A stretch of DNA of 29,401 nt. It comes from a virus. Made by a program: the position numbers and the translations under genes. Numbering within the stretch: position 1 is the first letter of the stretch; the number at the start of each line of letters is the position of its first letter. The stretch covers positions 1-29,401 of the IMG/VR virus record IMGVR_UViG_3300002228_000007, one strand, 5' to 3'. The notes under the pieces are model-generated. The model was given only the letters and a program-made list of their open reading frames with translations, made no database searches and was not told the origin of the DNA. Of this stretch, positions 1 through 29,401 are shown in pieces.

Positions 1-331
1 GCGGTAGCTTGATCTGTCAGCGCATTAATCTGGTCATACAAAGCACGATTGCTTTCGTCGATCGCTTCACGCTCGCGACGCCGTAATTCCTCGGTATCAC
101 CCAGCAATTGCAGCAACTGATTCTCTAAACCGATCCGCTGCTGAGCTACTTGTTCACGGGCAGCAGCCAGTTCTTGCTCGGCAGACGCTGCGGCTTGCGC
201 AGCGGTAGCTTGATCTGTCAGCGCATTAATCTGGTCATACAAAGCACGATTGCTTTCGTCGATCGCTTCACGCTCGCGACGCCGTAATTCCTCGGTATCA
301 CCCAGCAATTGCAGTAACTGATTTTCTAAAC
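1..331 (-). repeat. 201-bp tandem repeat inside the tape measure gene
   Basis: Bases 1-130 recur at 202-331 with only two mismatches (114/315 and 123/324), giving a period of 201 bp, or 67 codons, in frame. The first copy is cut by the window edge, so more copies may lie to the left. The encoded unit is a heptad-like coiled-coil segment followed by an Ala-rich linker. Similar repeats are common near the C-terminal part of tape measure proteins. Confidence 0.9.
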
Positions 332-3300
332 TTAGGCGCTCGCTGGCAATTTCTGCCGCCGACTTAAACGCAGGCAGCATAGCCAGAATAGAATCAGTAA
401 ACGGTTCAAGCCCCGCTTTTTGCACATCGGTCAGGCCGCCAAACAGCGCCTGCAGCGCTTCAATGCCGCCTTGCGCTGCGGTCTCAACAATGTCGATATT
501 CAAACCGACAGCGGCGAGGGCATCGCGCAGTGGCTTCATGCCATCGGCAATACCTAAATCGGTATCAAAGGAATAAGCGGAATTGGCGTAGTCTTCTAAT
601 TGCTTGTAATAATCGTCCAGTAAATCGCTTGACGTGGTGAGGGCGGTAAAGGCTTCTTGGTGTGCGGTAGTCGATAAGTCTAAACCCGACACGTAAGCCT
701 TTAATGCCTGAGTACTTGTCGGTAGCGCAACATCAAGTCGGTCAAACAGGCTAGCAACATAGTCTTGGGTCTGAGCAAACTTCTCAGCGTCAGTGAGTAT
801 AAAGTCGGTAAAGCTGCTAACGTTGCTTGCAAACTGTTCAAGCCCACCCGCAGCAGTTGTTAAGTCATCTGCTATCTGTAGGATTTGCTCATCAGTCCAG
901 GCGCGAGTTGTATTTTGTGTTACCGGCCGGTCGCCACGATCACGACCAAACAAGTCGCGAATACTGCTACTGATTCCGCCGAAGAAATTTTCAACATTGC
1001 TTTTCTCTGACGAGAGCGAGATGCCGAGCGCTGCCGCCGCGTCTTTGAAGATAACAGTTTGGGTTGCAACACGAGTCAGAGTTTCAAACAAACCTTCGCC
1101 GACATTCTGAAAATTAATCAGCGATGGAATAACCGTCAGCGCCACTTCATCGGCAAACGCACTTAAGACAGATTCAATTTCCTTTTGAGCGTCCTCAGCG
1201 GATAGACCAAACGTGGAAACTTGCAGCCCTTTAAAGTCACCTAGTGCGCCAGTGTTGCCAACGCCAATCGCATCAACAGCAGCAAATACAGACTCATAAA
1301 TGCTGCTAATGACTTGCCCAAACTGCCCGGCAATCTCATCACCCAAGCCTTCGGTTACTATGCTGTTGCTTGTTTTTGTGCCGTGGCCTAATTTACGCTT
1401 TTTGGTTTGGATATTGGCATACACAAATGCGTTAACAATGCCGTCGTCAATAATGTCAGCAACACTGCCGCCAAGGATCTGTAAACCCTCGTCGACTTTA
1501 GATGAGCTTTTAGAGCCAAATGCACCAGCAACGCTACTTAATGCGCCAAACGTGATCTTATCGACAAATTTATCAATCTCATCCCCAGTGTAAATATCGC
1601 TGCCAACACTGCCCAACGAATATCCCGTTTGCGCACCAACAAGGCCACCATCAAAATCTAACTGCCGGCCGAGTAAATTACCCAGCCCAGCAATATTCGC
1701 GTTGAGTGTGCGCAGCTCAATGAGCATGCCATTGCTGACTTGCAAGCCTTGCGAGAGATGGTCTTCCATCAGTTCGAGTGACTTAACTGCGCTGTCAGAT
1801 TTAGCCGACGAATCGCCCAGTACGGTGCCTGTACCTTGGCGTTGCTGGGCTTGTTGCGATGTCGACAACCCACCGCCACCAGAACCGCCAAATATACTTA
1901 CGCCCAGCGCGCCTATCGCCGCAATCGTTGCACCCAAGGCAGCTAAATTAAGTGGGAACGGTAAACCAACCATCGACGATACAGCAGCAGCCACGCCAGA
2001 CGAGGCGGCTTTAACACCGTCAGCCGCAACATGAGCAACGGTCTCGGCTTCAATCAAGCCGAGCTTCACGCCCAAATTGCTAATGGCAAATGCTAACTCT
2101 GCAGCCCTAAATGCCTGCTCAACTTTCTCAAGGTTTTTGTAGCCGGCTGAACCTTCATCAAAAAACTGTTTGCTCGATGCGGCCATGTCGCCATACAGGC
2201 CAACTTGCGCGGTCTGATACTTAATCGCCGCTTCGCCACGTTTCTTTTCATCGGCCTTAGGATCTTGCAGCGCTTTATTATAAATTTCCTGAACATTAAT
2301 CAGTTCACCAAAGCCATCAACAAACGTAGCCAATGCTTTAGATGCATCGTTAAAGCCATCAACTAGGCCGTCGCCAATACTGGCATTTAAGAAGGCATCC
2401 ATTGCGCCTTCATGTTCATCAGCTAAACTTTTTGCTTCTTTCGCAGCAGCCTTACTCTCGCTAGCCGTGCGTTTCAGAGAGTCCTGCAATAAGAGCTGCT
2501 CACGCTGCAACTGGCTTGCGTGATTAAACTGCACGGCAAAAGCTGCATCTTCAACCGTCATGCCTTGTTTAACCAAGCCTTGCTGCTCTCGTAACAGCGC
2601 AACACTTATCGTTAGATCTTGGATTTCTTTTGTGGCCCGATCACTTGCAGCCTTCTGATCCGCCGCCTCTTTTGCAGCCTTAGCCGCTGCGGTTTCAGCC
2701 GCCGCTTGATCCTTTCTGGCTTGGATTGTTTCACCAACAACAATGAGTTGGTCTTTAGCAGCGCCGATTTGGCCTTTAACGGCGGCAATATTTTCCATGA
2801 TGCCGCTTTTGTTACGGCCATGTGCTGCCGCAAGGTCGCCCTGCAGCGCAATTAATTTAAGTGTTTTTTCGCCAAGTAAATCTACATATAGCGCTTGAGC
2901 GCTTTGCAATGATTCATCGCTTGCAGATTTAGCTGCCGCCGTAAATTCACCAATCTGGCGGGCTGATTTTTGCGCTGCCGTGCCAGCGTAAAAAATACTA
3001 TCTCGGAAATAATAGACTCCAGCGGCTGCAATGATGGCAAGGCCAACCGGGCCACCAACCAGCGCCATAGCGCCGCTTAAACCCGCCATTGTGGCAGTGC
3101 CAGCCCTAGCCACAATCGTTGCTCTTGCCATCGATGCAGTTAGCGCCGTTGTGGCTGCCGTCGCTTTAAGCTTAGAACCAGTTGCTAATTCTTCGGCTGC
3201 GGTAATTTGCAACTTTGCAGCCTTAGCATCATGCAGTGCCAGTGTTGCTACTTTGGTCGCAGCGGCGCTTTGCTCAGTGGCTAGGGATGATGCCTTTAGC

Positions 3301-4715
3301 GACGCTATGTATTGCGCTTCAGCCGACGATAAGTTCTTAGTCAACGACGCAAGTTCGAGCCGAGACTGCGCCAGCCGGGTAGAGGCCATTTGCAAGCCTT
3401 TGGCAGATATTTGAGCGCGTAGACGCTGCTGCTCTAGTGCCATTTCCGCCTTAACTTGCTCTACCGTATAGCGAATATTACCTAAGCTTGCTGCCGCTAT
3501 TGCGGCCTCATTTCGCAGCTTGGCGGCGGCAGAGGCTTGCTCTCTCGCTGTAGCAACTTCAGTCATTGCTGAGCGTGTTTTTTGCCTTGCTATAGTTGAC
3601 GCCAGCGCTACTTGCTCTTGCGCTTCGCGAGCTGCTGCGGCAGTAGTTGTCGCCGTCATGGCAAGCGCTCGACCTTTCTCGGCAGCGGTGCTACCTAGCG
3701 TGACAACATTGCCTTTCGCTAGCTGCATCATATACGCAGCTTGCGCAACCCGAGCACTAGCAAAACTTGCAATAACAGGCCCAGCAAATTTCGCGACGAT
3801 CAACCCGCCAGCTACAGTCGCCGCATCTCCAATTTCATGGATTGCATCTGAGTCGATCCCACTTATTGCTGTTGCCAAATCACTAATCGTGCCTGCCATT
3901 GCAGACATGGCATCCGTCTCATCGTCGATTAAACCTAAGGCTTTTGAGATGCTGTTGAGTAGCTGTGTATTTGCGCGCTCAACAGATAGGGGAATCTCTT
4001 CAAATTCTTTGGCTATTTCGGGAGCCTGTTTAAGCAGTGTCTGAAAGATGTCTTTACTGAGAATGTCACCTGCATTAACAGATTGCTTTAATGTGCCTGG
4101 AAGCAATCCAAGACCAGATTCAATTCTTTTAGCAACTTCGGGTAGCTGCTCAAGGATGGAGTTAAGTTCTTCCGCCTGGGGTTGAGGCATTGCCAAAGCC
4201 TGGCTAAATTGCCGCAGACCACTTGCCATTTCCTCTTGGGTTGAGCCACCAATAACACCCAATTTTTGGACTGTATCGGTCAGCACCAACATTTGTTCAT
4301 TTGTACCGTTAAGTGCTTCCTTAGAACGGCTGAACGACTGAAATACCGATACTGTGTCCCGCAGCGCTGCACCGTTATCTTGGGTGACAGCGTAAAGCTG
4401 CTGCGACATTTCGACATAATCGCCAGTGGAGCGCGTAGCGGTTTTAATGCGCTGATCAAGCACATTGTATTGATCGGTAAGCTGCACATACTCGTGGAAT
4501 AAATAGCCAATACCCAGCGTGGCGATCACACCACGCAGAGAGGTAAACGAGTTTGATAATTGCTGATTGGCGGAGGTAGCTTTATTCGTTTCAACAGTAT
4601 TTTTACTGACATCGCCAGAGAGGTTTTTTACGGCCGTGCGCGTGCCATCCAGACCGCGCACAACAAGCTGGTCGCCTTTGAGTTCAAGCTGTAGTCCAAA
4701 TTTAACGTTGCTCAT
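1..4715 (-). CDS. Tail tape measure protein (partial, runs off left edge)
   Basis: The frame is open for at least 1,571 codons from the ATG at 4715 to the window edge, so the C-terminus is missing. Tape measure proteins set tail length and are the scaffold around which the tail tube assembles. The first ~270 residues resemble the tape-measure N-terminal domain found in lambda-like phages. Very long Ala/Gln/Glu-rich coiled-coil stretches follow, interrupted by hydrophobic Gly/Ala segments at about residues 540-570 and 905-950, as expected of proteins that later help DNA cross membranes. The part nearest the edge carries a 67-residue repeat (motif LLQLLGDTEELRRR and RALYDQINALTDQ). The start overlaps the stop of the upstream chaperone frame by 14 bases. 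The length and the position after G/GT make the call firm; the exact domain limits are inferred. Confidence 0.93.
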   Translation of the reverse strand, partial: MSNVKFGLQLELKGDQLVVRGLDGTRTAVKNLSGDVSKNTVETNKATSANQQLSNSFTSLRGVIATLGIGYLFHEYVQLTDQYNVLDQRIKTATRSTGDYVEMSQQLYAVTQDNGAALRDTVSVFQSFSRSKEALNGTNEQMLVLTDTVQKLGVIGGSTQEEMASGLRQFSQALAMPQPQAEELNSILEQLPEVAKRIESGLGLLPGTLKQSVNAGDILSKDIFQTLLKQAPEIAKEFEEIPLSVERANTQLLNSISKALGLIDDETDAMSAMAGTISDLATAISGIDSDAIHEIGDAATVAGGLIVAKFAGPVIASFASARVAQAAYMMQLAKGNVVTLGSTAAEKGRALAMTATTTAAAAREAQEQVALASTIARQKTRSAMTEVATAREQASAAAKLRNEAAIAAASLGNIRYTVEQVKAEMALEQQRLRAQISAKGLQMASTRLAQSRLELASLTKNLSSAEAQYIASLKASSLATEQSAAATKVATLALHDAKAAKLQITAAEELATGSKLKATAATTALTASMARATIVARAGTATMAGLSGAMALVGGPVGLAIIAAAGVYYFRDSIFYAGTAAQKSARQIGEFTAAAKSASDESLQSAQALYVDLLGEKTLKLIALQGDLAAAHGRNKSGIMENIAAVKGQIGAAKDQLIVVGETIQARKDQAAAETAAAKAAKEAADQKAASDRATKEIQDLTISVALLREQQGLVKQGMTVEDAAFAVQFNHASQLQREQLLLQDSLKRTASESKAAAKEAKSLADEHEGAMDAFLNASIGDGLVDGFNDASKALATFVDGFGELINVQEIYNKALQDPKADEKKRGEAAIKYQTAQVGLYGDMAASSKQFFDEGSAGYKNLEKVEQAFRAAELAFAISNLGVKLGLIEAETVAHVAADGVKAASSGVAAAVSSMVGLPFPLNLAALGATIAAIGALGVSIFGGSGGGGLSTSQQAQQRQGTGTVLGDSSAKSDSAVKSLELMEDHLSQGLQVSNGMLIELRTLNANIAGLGNLLGRQLDFDGGLVGAQTGYSLGSVGSDIYTGDEIDKFVDKITFGALSSVAGAFGSKSSSKVDEGLQILGGSVADIIDDGIVNAFVYANIQTKKRKLGHGTKTSNSIVTEGLGDEIAGQFGQVISSIYESVFAAVDAIGVGNTGALGDFKGLQVSTFGLSAEDAQKEIESVLSAFADEVALTVIPSLINFQNVGEGLFETLTRVATQTVIFKDAAAALGISLSSEKSNVENFFGGISSSIRDLFGRDRGDRPVTQNTTRAWTDEQILQIADDLTTAAGGLEQFASNVSSFTDFILTDAEKFAQTQDYVASLFDRLDVALPTSTQALKAYVSGLDLSTTAHQEAFTALTTSSDLLDDYYKQLEDYANSAYSFDTDLGIADGMKPLRDALAAVGLNIDIVETAAQGGIEALQALFGGLTDVQKAGLEPFTDSILAMLPAFKSAAEIASERLSLENQLLQLLGDTEELRRREREAIDESNRALYDQINALTDQATAAQAAASAEQELAAAREQVAQQRIGLENQLLQLLGDTEELRRREREAIDESNRALYDQINALTDQAT

Positions 4716-5061
4716 CTCTCAACTCTGTAAATGCGTCCAAGGCGTGGTTTTGTAAAACCGTAAGGTCTCGCCACAGCTGGTCAGTTTTTTCTTCATCCAA
4801 AGCCCGGCATTCCGGCATGTGGCGGGCGCGGATCTCGACTTGATCCCAACGCATACCCATTCTTACAATCTCACCCAGCGGGCTAATTAGGCTGTCCCAT
4901 TGCCGACTGCAGGCAAGGAACAAACTAAATACAGGCCAGTTGCACTCCATAACCAGAATGCCTTCCTTGGCGATTTCATCCTCCTGATTCAGCCAAGCAA
5001 GGTCTTCTTCACTTGCCCCTAATTTTCGGTACTGCTCGCGCACGCGGTCGGTGTTAGACAC
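4702..5061 (-). CDS. Tail assembly chaperone T part (DUF1799-like), probably made as a G-T fusion
   Basis: The 119-residue frame opening at a GTG resembles the phage DUF1799 family (central ECNWPVFSLFL and GMRWDQVEIR stretches). It sits where lambda T lies, between G and the tape measure. No Shine-Dalgarno sequence precedes the GTG. The same frame is open upstream to 5142, inside the end of the G gene, where a slippery heptamer occurs. The natural product is therefore likely a 288-residue G-T fusion: 148 residues read from 5567 to 5124, then 140 residues from 5124 to 4702. Such fusions bind the tape measure and recruit tail tube subunits. Independent translation from 5061 is possible but less likely. 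Confidence 0.82.
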   Translation of the reverse strand: MSNTDRVREQYRKLGASEEDLAWLNQEDEIAKEGILVMECNWPVFSLFLACSRQWDSLISPLGEIVRMGMRWDQVEIRARHMPECRALDEEKTDQLWRDLTVLQNHALDAFTELRDEQR

Positions 5062-5078
5062 GGTGCGCCAATCACCAT

Positions 5079-5567
5079 TTAGCTCTCGCCACCCACTTGC
5101 CCAGCCACAGGCAAGGTCACGGAGTTTTTTGAGCGAGCAGCTTCACCTCCCTGACTTTCTTGGTGGGCTTTCATAACAGCTTCGCGGATCATCTTTTGGC
5201 CCAGTAGCTGCCGCTTGGTGTCTTCGGTGTACGGCAATGGCTGGCCATCTTCACCGGTCAGATCGTCGCCCCAGCCAAGCCAGATGTCGGCATACAAATC
5301 GATTTGGTGATTAGCAATAATTTCAGAGGTGCGCAGTGCAGAGACTTCGCTTTCTGCTGCTTCCGCCGTTAGTTGATCGATTTTTTCTTGGGCCTTTGCC
5401 AGCAGCGCATTCGCCTCGGTCATCGACAAATGTTTGAAGTGGCCGGTAAAACGATGGGTATCAAATTCGCCTTCGCCGTCGGCATTCATCACCGGCACTT
5501 TCACGTCCACAGGCCAGTGATAGCTTTTTAATAACTTGATCGAAAATCCAGAATTTGCTTTGTTCAT
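5079..5567 (-). CDS. Tail assembly chaperone G-like protein
   Basis: The gene encodes a 162-residue acidic-to-neutral protein between the tail tube gene and the tape measure, the position of lambda G. It starts at an ATG preceded by GGAG. The N-terminal ~50 residues look like a small beta domain (KVPVMNADGEGEFDTHRF), followed by a helical region (residues 50-90). The family is poorly conserved in sequence, so the assignment rests on position, size and the frameshift site near the 3' end. By analogy with lambda, most product would be the short G form and a few percent the G-T fusion; the ratio cannot be read from sequence. Confidence 0.8.
   Translation of the reverse strand: MNKANSGFSIKLLKSYHWPVDVKVPVMNADGEGEFDTHRFTGHFKHLSMTEANALLAKAQEKIDQLTAEAAESEVSALRTSEIIANHQIDLYADIWLGWGDDLTGEDGQPLPYTEDTKRQLLGQKMIREAVMKAHQESQGGEAARSKNSVTLPVAGQVGGES
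5124..5151 (-). promoter_or_regulatory. Programmed -1 ribosomal frameshift signal (A AAA AAC with internal Shine-Dalgarno)
   Basis: Reading the minus strand, the G frame contains the heptamer A AAA AAC at 5130-5124, correctly phased as X XXY YYZ. A strong Shine-Dalgarno-like GGGAGGTGA lies at 5151-5143, 12 bases upstream, as in the dnaX frameshift cassette. The -1 frame is closed by a TGA at 5145-5143 and is open from 5142 onward, while the G frame stops at 5081. A shift must therefore fall within this ~60-base window, and this is the only slippery heptamer I see there. Confidence 0.85.
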
Positions 5568-5596: not shown

Positions 5597-5800
5597 TTAA
5601 CGCCGGTTTAATCGCCTCGCAACACGCTGCGCTTTACGAGCAGCCTTCTTGCAAGGCTTGGCTTTTGTTTTGTAATGAACGGGAATTCGTCGCGCATGCT
5701 CTGGGTACCAACACACCCCATCAACATGCGACCTATGAAGTAAGAATGGCGCTGGCGTTACCGCCAGTGCCACTCCTAATGCCAACGCTGCGCGCCGCAT
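5597..5800 (-). CDS. Small basic protein with signal-like N-terminus, unknown function
   Basis: The gene encodes 67 residues and starts within the stop of the tail tube gene (TAATG overlap), so translation is probably coupled. Residues 1-20 form a hydrophobic Ala/Leu stretch after two arginines, like a signal peptide or membrane anchor. The remainder is very basic, ending in a Lys/Arg-rich tail (KKAARKAQRVARRLNRR). Two cysteines are present. I do not recognise a family. Its location between tube and chaperone genes suggests a tail or late function, but it could equally be a small membrane-active accessory protein. Confidence 0.6.
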   Translation of the reverse strand: MRRAALALGVALAVTPAPFLLHRSHVDGVCWYPEHARRIPVHYKTKAKPCKKAARKAQRVARRLNRR

Positions 5801-6750
5801 TACAAATGCGCGAAGGTGTAGTCGTTACCTTTTGCCGTGGCAATCACGTTGCAACTGAGCGTCAGCATCGCAATGCCTTTCTCAAAGCTGCGCTCCACGT
5901 TCGATACCTCAACTGCTGGGGCGGCATATTGGAAGATCCGGCCCTCATGGGTCACGTCAATGCCATGCTGCATACTGAAGGCATCCACCGTATTGGCGCG
6001 GGCAATCTCCCACCAGTTGTCTACGCCCACATCTTCCTCGCGGAATTTCACGCTCATTGTGGCCTTGCGGCTAGACTGCACAATTTCTTCCTGCCCGATT
6101 AGCGCTAAGTACTCCGCAGGCATTGCCTGAGTAAAGTCGAAACTCGCGCCATTAAGAGCAACGCCGTGCAGGGTAAAATCTTGCACCGTGGCTTTGGTCC
6201 AGGGCAGCGGTTTGAGCACGCCCGCAAAGTCGATTCCGGTCAGCCCGCCAATGACTTTTGCTGGGGCTTTATACAAACCAAGGCCGCTGAACTTCAGCAC
6301 AGGCAAGCCGGTGCTGCTAAAACTGAATGAAATAGACCCGCGCACCCCAAGCAAGGTGTGCTTATGCTCGCCCACCATATAAAAAATAGTGCCGCTGTCT
6401 TGGTCGCTGGTGGCCAAGGTGTAATCCACAGAGGTGTCTGCCGTTACCACGCCAGCGTGGGAGCTGATTTCGTACACCGCACTGTAAGCCGGTGCCACAC
6501 CAGCATCGCCAGAACCGTTCAGATAAATGCTGAACTCCACGCTGCAATACGTGTTGATCCGAGCACTACCTTGATGGCCCAAAAAGCCAACCATATTGTT
6601 TAGCTCGGCAACATCGCCTTCCAGTGCGCGCACGGTAATGTCATGCACCAGCAAGGCGTTGGCACCGGCGGGTGCTTCCTCTGTGCCGTAAGTGGTTTCC
6701 ACTTTCAGGGCAATGACCTGTTCTTGCTCTCGCAGTAATATCGCAGTCAT
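5800..6750 (-). CDS. Major tail tube protein (siphovirus type)
   Basis: The 316-residue protein begins with MTAILLREQEQVIALKVETT and a conserved YGTEEAP segment. These are typical of phage tail tube proteins of the TTP family, which polymerise as hexameric rings into the tail tube. Much of the sequence is beta-strand-rich (residues 120-180 and 250-310). The gene follows the gp37-like tail completion gene and precedes the chaperones. No sheath gene lies between gp37 and this gene, as it would in contractile-tailed Mu. A ribosome-binding site AGGAG is 11 bases before the ATG. The length, longer than lambda V, suggests an extra C-terminal domain. Confidence 0.82.
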   Translation of the reverse strand: MTAILLREQEQVIALKVETTYGTEEAPAGANALLVHDITVRALEGDVAELNNMVGFLGHQGSARINTYCSVEFSIYLNGSGDAGVAPAYSAVYEISSHAGVVTADTSVDYTLATSDQDSGTIFYMVGEHKHTLLGVRGSISFSFSSTGLPVLKFSGLGLYKAPAKVIGGLTGIDFAGVLKPLPWTKATVQDFTLHGVALNGASFDFTQAMPAEYLALIGQEEIVQSSRKATMSVKFREEDVGVDNWWEIARANTVDAFSMQHGIDVTHEGRIFQYAAPAVEVSNVERSFEKGIAMLTLSCNVIATAKGNDYTFAHL

Positions 6751-13101: not shown

Positions 13102-13314
13102 TTACTGCCATAATTTATCCAGTACTCGGTCAATCGGTATATATATCCAATCGTTCCATTTCCAAATAATTGTCGCGCTAAAAAAGCCAGCCCAATAGGC
13201 ATCACAGTAAATTGCAAGTAGTACGGAGACTACGCAGGATGCGGCTATAAAAAACATTCCAACCAATACGATTAAGTCGCCTTTGTTCGATATTTTTGAG
13301 CAATCTATTTTCAT
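13102..13314 (-). CDS. Small two-helix membrane protein, unknown
   Basis: The gene encodes 70 residues with two predicted membrane helices (about 13-35 and 38-56) and a charged ending. The N-terminus is short and polar (MKIDCSKISNKGD). I recognise no family. It is the island gene closest to MuF and points the same way as the late operon, so late transcription would include it. It diverges from the 113-residue membrane protein gene, with 62 bases between their starts. The size resembles immunity, superinfection exclusion or holin-like proteins, but there is no direct evidence for any of these. Confidence 0.6.
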   Translation of the reverse strand: MKIDCSKISNKGDLIVLVGMFFIAASCVVSVLLAIYCDAYWAGFFSATIIWKWNDWIYIPIDRVLDKLWQ

Positions 13315-13376
13315 GTGCTTACTCTGGGGTTCTGACGTATATTTTGACCTTTCACTTTTCGAGAGACCTCTTGCTC

Positions 13377-13718
13377 ATGGAAGCAATCATAACTTTTCTA
13401 ATGGCACTGCTAACTATTGTTGCCGCAATGGCAGTGGCAGCAAAAAACATTGCTGAGTACAAACTGGCCAAAATCAAGCTGACGATCGAAGCCAAACAAA
13501 GGAGCACTGAAGATACTGCATCAAACAGCAGCCACTTCACCTCTAAGGCCAACAACCTTGGTTCATTGTTCGGGTTACTTGCCATTATGTTATCCATTGC
13601 TAGTTTGTTCCTCACCTCAGTGACTTCTGACACAGCGCCTTTGACAGCCGGTAAACTTGCCTCGATCGTTGAGAGCGTTCTGGTTTTTATGAGTGGAGCC
13701 TACTTATTAACCCGCTGA
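13377..13718 (+). CDS. Small three-helix membrane protein on opposite strand, unknown
   Basis: I chose the ATG at 13377 because it begins the first membrane helix directly (MEAIITFLMALLTIVAAMAV); an upstream ATG at 13296 would add 27 residues and overlap the divergent gene. The 113 residues comprise helix 1 (1-22), a charged, probably cytoplasmic amphipathic stretch (25-58), helix 2 (62-83) and helix 3 (90-111). It is read against the late operon, so it must have its own promoter. A minus-strand frame covers the same DNA, but it is shorter, has no good ribosome-binding site and looks like an antisense image of these helices. Function is unknown. Confidence 0.62.
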   Translation: MEAIITFLMALLTIVAAMAVAAKNIAEYKLAKIKLTIEAKQRSTEDTASNSSHFTSKANNLGSLFGLLAIMLSIASLFLTSVTSDTAPLTAGKLASIVESVLVFMSGAYLLTR

Positions 13719-13729
13719 TAATAAATGGC

Positions 13730-13915
13730 TTAAAACTCCAGCATGGTGGCGTGCCGTAAATCTGTACAGCCGACCCACACCAATTGTCGTTTACCTAATT
13801 TATTTCTGCGCGGCAGCAGATCCTCTGCCTCCCACCAAGGAAATCGCAATACAATATTTTTTCCTGTATTACAGCTGTGGACCCGACTTAACTCCCTTCT
13901 ATAATCTAAGTCCAT
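13730..13915 (-). CDS. Small soluble protein downstream of the 169-residue membrane protein
   Basis: The gene encodes 61 residues and begins with GGGGAAGG directly before the ATG, one of the strongest ribosome-binding sites in the island. It lies 12 bases after the 169-residue membrane protein and is probably co-transcribed with it. The sequence is hydrophilic with aromatic spots (VLRFPWWEAEDLLPRR) and two Cys, with no membrane helix. I do not recognise a family. A two-gene operon of a membrane protein plus a small soluble protein could be an effector with a regulator, but this is speculation. Confidence 0.6.
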   Translation of the reverse strand: MDLDYRRELSRVHSCNTGKNIVLRFPWWEAEDLLPRRNKLGKRQLVWVGCTDLRHATMLEF

Positions 13916-13927
13916 TGCCTTCCCCGC

Positions 13928-14437
13928 TCATTGACCTAACCAAGCCGCAAGGCCCGACCAAGCAACGGCAAGAGAAAGAACAAAAAGCTGGGCAATGAAC
14001 GCGGATATTGCACCGCGCAAGCACCAACCGAAGTGTTTGTTTTGACTCAGCAAAGTTTGGGTAACATAGCTGTAGTCAGACAGCATTTTAGAATATGCCA
14101 AGCCCTCGTCACCTTTTACTAGGTAGCCCTCGTACCAGCGTTCATAAGAATCTGGCCCTGGCAGCGGCGCGATGGACGGAGAATAGGCTTTAGCTGCAAA
14201 CCAATAGATTGCTACAGATGCTAAACACACCAACCCAAGTAGAATAGACTCCACGTTGTACCCCGTGGTTGACTCGGGCAGAAACTTCGCCGCAGAGATG
14301 ATGCCAACCAATGCGGTTGACGACACGCAAACAACACCTATTCTTTTACGGAGCATTTCGTTAAATTCAAGTGCCGTAGCAAGGTTCTCGCGGGCCTGCT
14401 GGAATACGTTGTTTCTCAAATTATCTGACCAATTCAC
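13928..14437 (-). CDS. Three-helix membrane protein with cytoplasmic helical loop, unknown
   Basis: The 169-residue protein starts at a GTG with AGGAG 6 bases upstream. An N-terminal helical stretch of ~32 residues precedes two close membrane helices (34-54 and 64-84). A ~55-residue polar loop with a YERWYEGYLVKGDEGLAYSK segment follows, then a final helix (142-166). The layout resembles small membrane effectors such as SLATT-type proteins, in which a helical pair is joined to a soluble helical part. I cannot show homology. The 54-residue plus-strand gene starts only 11 bases away in the opposite direction. The island location suggests a prophage-carried accessory function, such as exclusion of other phages. 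Confidence 0.72.
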   Translation of the reverse strand: MNWSDNLRNNVFQQARENLATALEFNEMLRKRIGVVCVSSTALVGIISAAKFLPESTTGYNVESILLGLVCLASVAIYWFAAKAYSPSIAPLPGPDSYERWYEGYLVKGDEGLAYSKMLSDYSYVTQTLLSQNKHFGWCLRGAISAFIAQLFVLSLAVAWSGLAAWLGQ

Positions 14438-29165: not shown

Positions 29166-29401
29166 ATGAAAGCAAGATTTACCCAATCGTTCAAAGCTCA
29201 AGCAGTGAAGAAGGCCTTCAGTCGCAGTGGCGATACAACGTTAAAGGCGGTGGCTGATTCGCTGGGGGTTGGTCACTCCACGCTCAACAGGTGGATGGTA
29301 CAATCCCGAGCCCAAGAATCTGAATCCATCACCGCTACCGAGAGCCCAAGCTTACGCCTTATGTCAAAAGAGAAAAGACCACAAGATTGGAGCTTGGAAG
29401 A
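29166..29401 (+). CDS. Transposase OrfA-like protein, partial (cut by window edge)
   Basis: The 78 visible residues start MKARFTQSFKAQAVKKAFSR and contain a helix-turn-helix (TLKAVADSLGVGHSTLNRWM, residues 25-44), the pattern of IS3-type OrfA and related transposase N-termini. A KRPQDWS motif near residue 70 is familiar from a group of such transposases in Gammaproteobacteria. The DDE part, whether fused or in a second frame, is outside the window. The family assignment is therefore tentative. Confidence 0.8.
   Translation, partial: MKARFTQSFKAQAVKKAFSRSGDTTLKAVADSLGVGHSTLNRWMVQSRAQESESITATESPSLRLMSKEKRPQDWSLE

Follow-up and report, generated by a model that had tools for sequence, protein, structure and literature searches.

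The locus examined here raised the question of whether two overlapping open reading frames (ORFs), G and T, are separate genes or are joined by a programmed −1 frameshift, and whether an internal Shine–Dalgarno (SD) sequence upstream of the slippery site takes part in the slip. The window, i.e., the whole 29,401-nt stretch of viral DNA that was analysed (positions 1–29,401 of IMG/VR record IMGVR_UViG_3300002228_000007), belongs to a Mu-like phage whose tail genes are of the siphophage kind. The genes were arranged in the order transposase, Mu F, gpT, Gp36, tail terminator, tail tube, G, T, and tape measure. The features of the locus are as follows.

5800–6750, minus strand: tail tube gene, 5' of G (Phage_tube_2, E 2.7e-8)
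5079–5567, minus strand: ORF G, predicted short form of the tail-assembly chaperone, 162 aa, located with T between tail tube and tape measure (phrog_569, E 1.7e-15)
5143–5151, minus strand: internal SD GGGAGGTGA, which holds the TGA closing the −1 frame upstream (four genomes share GGGAGG(T/C)GA with the same spacing)
5124–5130, minus strand: slippery heptamer A_AAA_AAC, in phase with G
5079–5123, minus strand: zero-frame run-on after the heptamer, 14 sense codons and TAA, overlapping the T frame (pLDDT ~35)
4702–5130, minus strand: T frame (−1) from the heptamer to its stop (phrog_680, E 1.2e-8; DUF1799, E 5.6e-4)
5059–5061, minus strand: GTG, first start codon of the T frame (GTC in relative L016, GTA in relative L045)
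3–4715, minus strand: tape measure gene, its ATG overlapping the end of T, truncated at the contig end (16 tape measure PHROGs, best 1e-60)

G and T were homologous to the RcapMu-type chaperone family (phrog_569/phrog_680, DUF1799). The G of the window by itself was below every Pfam cut-off, with a weak match to Phage_TAC_4 (E 0.021); four of seven relatives matched this family, the best at 1.5e-4. DUF1799 was found in the T of all seven relatives scanned (best E 2.6e-14). The AlphaFold models had mean pLDDT values of 79 for G and 71 for T. Both models matched a 236-aa protein of Serratia phage Scapp that is named 'tape measure chaperone' (E 4.7e-4 and 3.9e-3, respectively), which is the pattern that a G/GT pair predicts, and the G model additionally matched the 129-aa chaperone of Scapp. 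Among solved structures, no meaningful match to the G fold was found. Both phrog_569 and phrog_680 carry the label 'tail length tape measure protein', and the true tape measure is the next gene, which suggests that the two families are chaperone parts instead.

The heptamer at 5130–5124 was in the correct phase, as the initial annotation had claimed, with TC before it and TCC after it in G. The −1 frame was likewise open from immediately past the TGA at 5145–5143, inside GGGAGGTGA, to the stop at 4704–4702, and the fusion came to the 288 residues claimed. A total of 15 canonical in-phase heptamers were present in the 8,299 codons of the main ORFs of the window, and the one at 5130–5124 was the only one with a −1 frame open beyond the end of its ORF (140 codons after the shift; 38 for the runner-up). 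When the codon order of G was shuffled, A_AAA_AAC fell in the overlap in 0.24% of the shuffles and any canonical heptamer in 4%. The heptamer is of the low-efficiency type. A low-efficiency shift suits a chaperone because the G and GT forms are made at 30:1 in lambda (PMC5009743) and the chaperone shift was measured at 6–7% in an HK97-like cluster (PMC3711429). The zero-frame run-on tail is probably disordered, judging from the model. A downstream stimulatory hairpin was considered separately and was unsupported; the fold z-scores ranged from −0.99 to +0.17, the pairing differed among the relatives, and there was little covariation. The Rfam search gave no match.

Relatives were sought with the tail tube protein as bait, and the heptamer survey covered 24 tabulated relatives: phages of Rhodobacter, Rhodovulum, Synechococcus, Pelagibaca, Thiobacimonas, Vibrio, Alteromonas, Microcystis, and Agrobacterium, as well as prophages and viral contigs. 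A canonical heptamer was present in 24 of 24, in a scan that demanded one; the list was then checked for omissions, and the sole missing locus was that of a Vibrio relative, L038. The slippery run of this relative is longer by one A (around 1866), which places G and T in one frame at the predicted junction; this could be a natural fusion or a homopolymer sequencing error. The heptamer of the tabulated relatives was A_AAA_AAC or G_GGA_AAC, the latter in L045, RcapMu, RC1, and L043 among others, and once T_TTT_TTC; the X_XXA_AAC heptamers are weak. In most of the distant relatives, a stop codon stood immediately 3' of the heptamer and the zero-frame run-on was absent.

The three closest relatives were L014 (G 86% identical to that of the window; the same sequence in two contigs), L016 (a Zhongshania prophage, the same as L017; G ~70% identical), and L045 (54% identical over the whole fusion, E 4e-119). 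These three and the window all retained the SD, its spacing, a slippery heptamer, and a zero frame that runs on for 14–21 codons. In L045, three coordinated changes (AAA to GGG) turned the heptamer into G_GGA_AAC, by which the slipperiness was kept and a zero-frame Lys became Gly. A search of 293 genomes from the order of Zhongshania yielded no further copy, and scanning viral contigs for the DNA pattern of SD plus heptamer gave nothing beyond the contigs already known. Conservation of heptamer, SD, and overlap together, which had been proposed as the check on the cassette, thus held for the closest relatives; among the wider relatives the heptamer was kept, but the SD was mostly absent. The SD is, in terms of sequence, lineage-specific, and the heptamer and the predicted fusion are a family trait.

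The SD was located at the distance claimed, with exactly 12 nt between GGGAGGTGA and the heptamer. The coding strand of the window (29.4 kb) contained GGAGGTGA a single time, and the stretch upstream of the heptamer had a pairing energy of −17.0 kcal/mol with the 16S rRNA tail, compared with −7.4 kcal/mol for dnaX. The arrangement had been described as the same combination as in dnaX, and it agreed with dnaX in having a poly-A heptamer with an upstream internal SD. The agreement is partial, as the A-site codon is AAC rather than the AAG of the dnaX heptamer A_AAA_AAG and the SD is ~6 nt further upstream. E. coli dnaX reads AGGGAG-N10-A_AAA_AAG, i.e., a distance of 10 nt, whereas the distance in the window was 12 nt from the last base of the SD and 16 nt in the GGAG register. 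The dnaX stem-loop a few nt downstream had no supported counterpart in the window. Furthermore, dnaX is described with this stem-loop, an efficiency of ~50%, and a shortened rather than a lengthened product (PMC5009743). Stimulatory SD–heptamer spacings are given in three publications as 6–17 nt (PMC4066793), 9–14 nt (PMC5009743), and 8–11 nt (PMC6321510). The gaps here were 14–17 nt by the measure of PMC4066793, at the far edge of, or past, these spacings. An SD in such a position is not unheard of, because conserved SDs 5' of heptamers were found in three of 13 clusters of insertion sequences (IS) and prophages (PMC4066793). An SD-stimulated tail chaperone was not described in the literature examined, which was seen in part and included few subscription papers. 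Stimulation of the slip by this SD is plausible and would perhaps be moderate.

There is a substantial possibility, although one that falls short of probable, that the frameshift is real and the SD-like sequence incidental, having arisen from a conserved Q-G-G-E and shared descent with no stimulation. The peptide Q-G-G-E was indeed conserved in all four genomes, and the arrangement was seen in only four genomes. The RcapMu-type relatives had an SD-like stretch derived from Q-E-A at another spacing, and no family-wide SD enrichment was found: within the published spacing range, SD-like matches in distant relatives were about as frequent as background. However, CAGGGAGG(T/C)GAAG occurred at identical spacing in the window, L014, L016, and L045, the last with a fusion only 54% identical, and the sequence of the spacer varied while the SD and the spacing held. 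Moreover, all four genomes use GGA for the first Gly, a rare codon (30 of the 491 for Gly in the window), whereas codons for the same amino acid elsewhere in G agreed at 42 of 83 positions between the window and L045. Codon shuffling gave p values for the SD of 0.020, 0.050, 0.116, and 0.016 in the four genomes; the value of 0.116, that of L016, is compatible with an incidental SD when taken alone. The combined value by Fisher's method was ~0.001 if the genomes are independent, which they are not fully. In the reading of an SD that helps the slip, it is possible, with close to an even chance, that the lineage of the window, L014, L016, and L045 swapped the stop adjacent to the heptamer for a run-on zero frame and a strong SD at a longer register (16 nt) than that of dnaX, with mRNA–rRNA pairing setting the G:GT ratio.

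The second alternative was that T is a separate gene, translated from the GTG at 5061 by re-initiation or coupling 17 nt past the G stop, with the heptamer incidental. This GTG is near the G stop, and L016 also has nearby start codons. The initial annotation had held that the GTG has no ribosome-binding site; this needs qualification, because the upstream TGGTGAT can form base pairs with the 5' portion of the 16S tail (−9.7 kcal/mol). The pairing does not involve the core CCUCC, however, and the sequence was not conserved in the relatives. The GTG itself was not conserved either. The 42 nt after the heptamer and before the GTG were used for a coding test, in which silent and replacement codons were counted in each frame. 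The silent:replacement ratios in the −1 and zero frames were 4:1 and 1:4 for the window and L014, 5:2 and 2:6 for the window and L045, and 6:1 and 0:7 for L014 and L045. The comparison between the window and L016 was the exception (1:3 and 1:4). Thus, from these substitutions, the −1 frame 5' of the GTG is under protein-level constraint (KLRDLARGWAS.WRE.NG), and since this stretch precedes the non-conserved GTG, the conserved T-frame protein begins 5' of any start codon. In Alteromonas phage P24, the T frame had no start codon over 90 codons, and the heptamer was present family-wide. A separate T gene is therefore very unlikely, the GTG at 5061 is probably not in use, and conservation of the T frame upstream of any start codon is best explained by a shift. 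A start of T translation within the frame, driven by the SD, was also considered and was rejected, as the −1 frame has no ATG, GTG, or TTG ahead of the GTG at 5061. Slippage of the transcribing polymerase on the six-A run, in place of a ribosomal slip, is likewise very unlikely: the A6 run is present and L038 has a longer A run with an in-frame fusion, but the heptamer is G_GGA_AAC in L045, RcapMu, RC1, L043, and other relatives. Its three A are poorly suited to polymerase slippage, which is reported for runs of ~nine A or T (PMC5009743).

With high confidence, the sequence comparisons point to a G/GT tail-assembly chaperone with a low-rate programmed −1 frameshift, which is probably helped by the SD in this lineage. 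Most ribosomes would translate G and terminate at 5079, and a small share would slip one base back on A_AAA_AAC and read the T frame to 4702, producing the 288-residue GT. The slip is probably aided when GGAGGTGA pairs with the 16S rRNA tail of the ribosome that is translating the message. By analogy with lambda, the tape measure protein would carry a coat of many copies of G and few of GT, and the tail tube subunits would be recruited by the T part.

A frameshift has already been annotated in kin: the GenBank record of RcapMu marks a 'potential -1 frameshift' at the homologous site. The Rhodobacter phages RcapMu and RcWaterboi (genes RcapMu49-50) resemble the window in being Mu-like siphophages with the same gene order, a homologous T (DUF1799), and a canonical heptamer in the corresponding place. 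They differ in that the heptamer is G_GGA_AAC, a stop follows directly, and the SD-like AGGAGG is ~8 nt nearer. The lambda heptamer is G_GGA_AAG and differs from that of the window. The lambda G/GT pair is similar to the predicted one in comprising a short form and a −1 fusion between tail tube and tape measure, produced by a low-efficiency shift (PMC5009743); no SD was described for it in the portions of the literature examined. PaMx73, of the D3112 group of Pseudomonas aeruginosa phages, is also a Mu-like siphophage for which a −1 shift in the tail assembly genes has been predicted, but has T_TTT_TTC, 43 codons ahead of the zero-frame stop, and no SD mentioned in the accessible text (PMC4378225). 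The fusion is very probably real in this unannotated group of phages, and gene callers would split it there. The relatives represent a natural series on the tuning of G:GT, in which a weak X_XXA_AAC heptamer is combined with an adjacent stop, a near SD, or a far SD and a run-on frame.

Several other features of the window were observed. A 67-aa ORF (5597–5800, minus strand) lay between the tail tube gene and G, its start overlapping the tail tube stop; it had a hydrophobic N-terminus and a basic C-terminus and was without any family match, and a similar 68-aa ORF was present in L014. The region that separates the Mu F-like gene from the portal gene (13102–14437, minus strand) held three small ORFs; these, one of them of 169 aa and apparently membrane-bound, had no family matches and no matches in the defence library. 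The contig end cut the tape measure gene within a 201-nt direct repeat (1–139 and 202–340, 96% alike; window 1–340), and the contig probably stops here because the assembly broke in this repeat. At the right end, the N-terminus of an IS-type transposase (29166–29399, plus strand; HTH_Tnp_1, E 1.1e-8) was located on the opposite strand past the phage transposase gene, and this region is flanking IS or host DNA.
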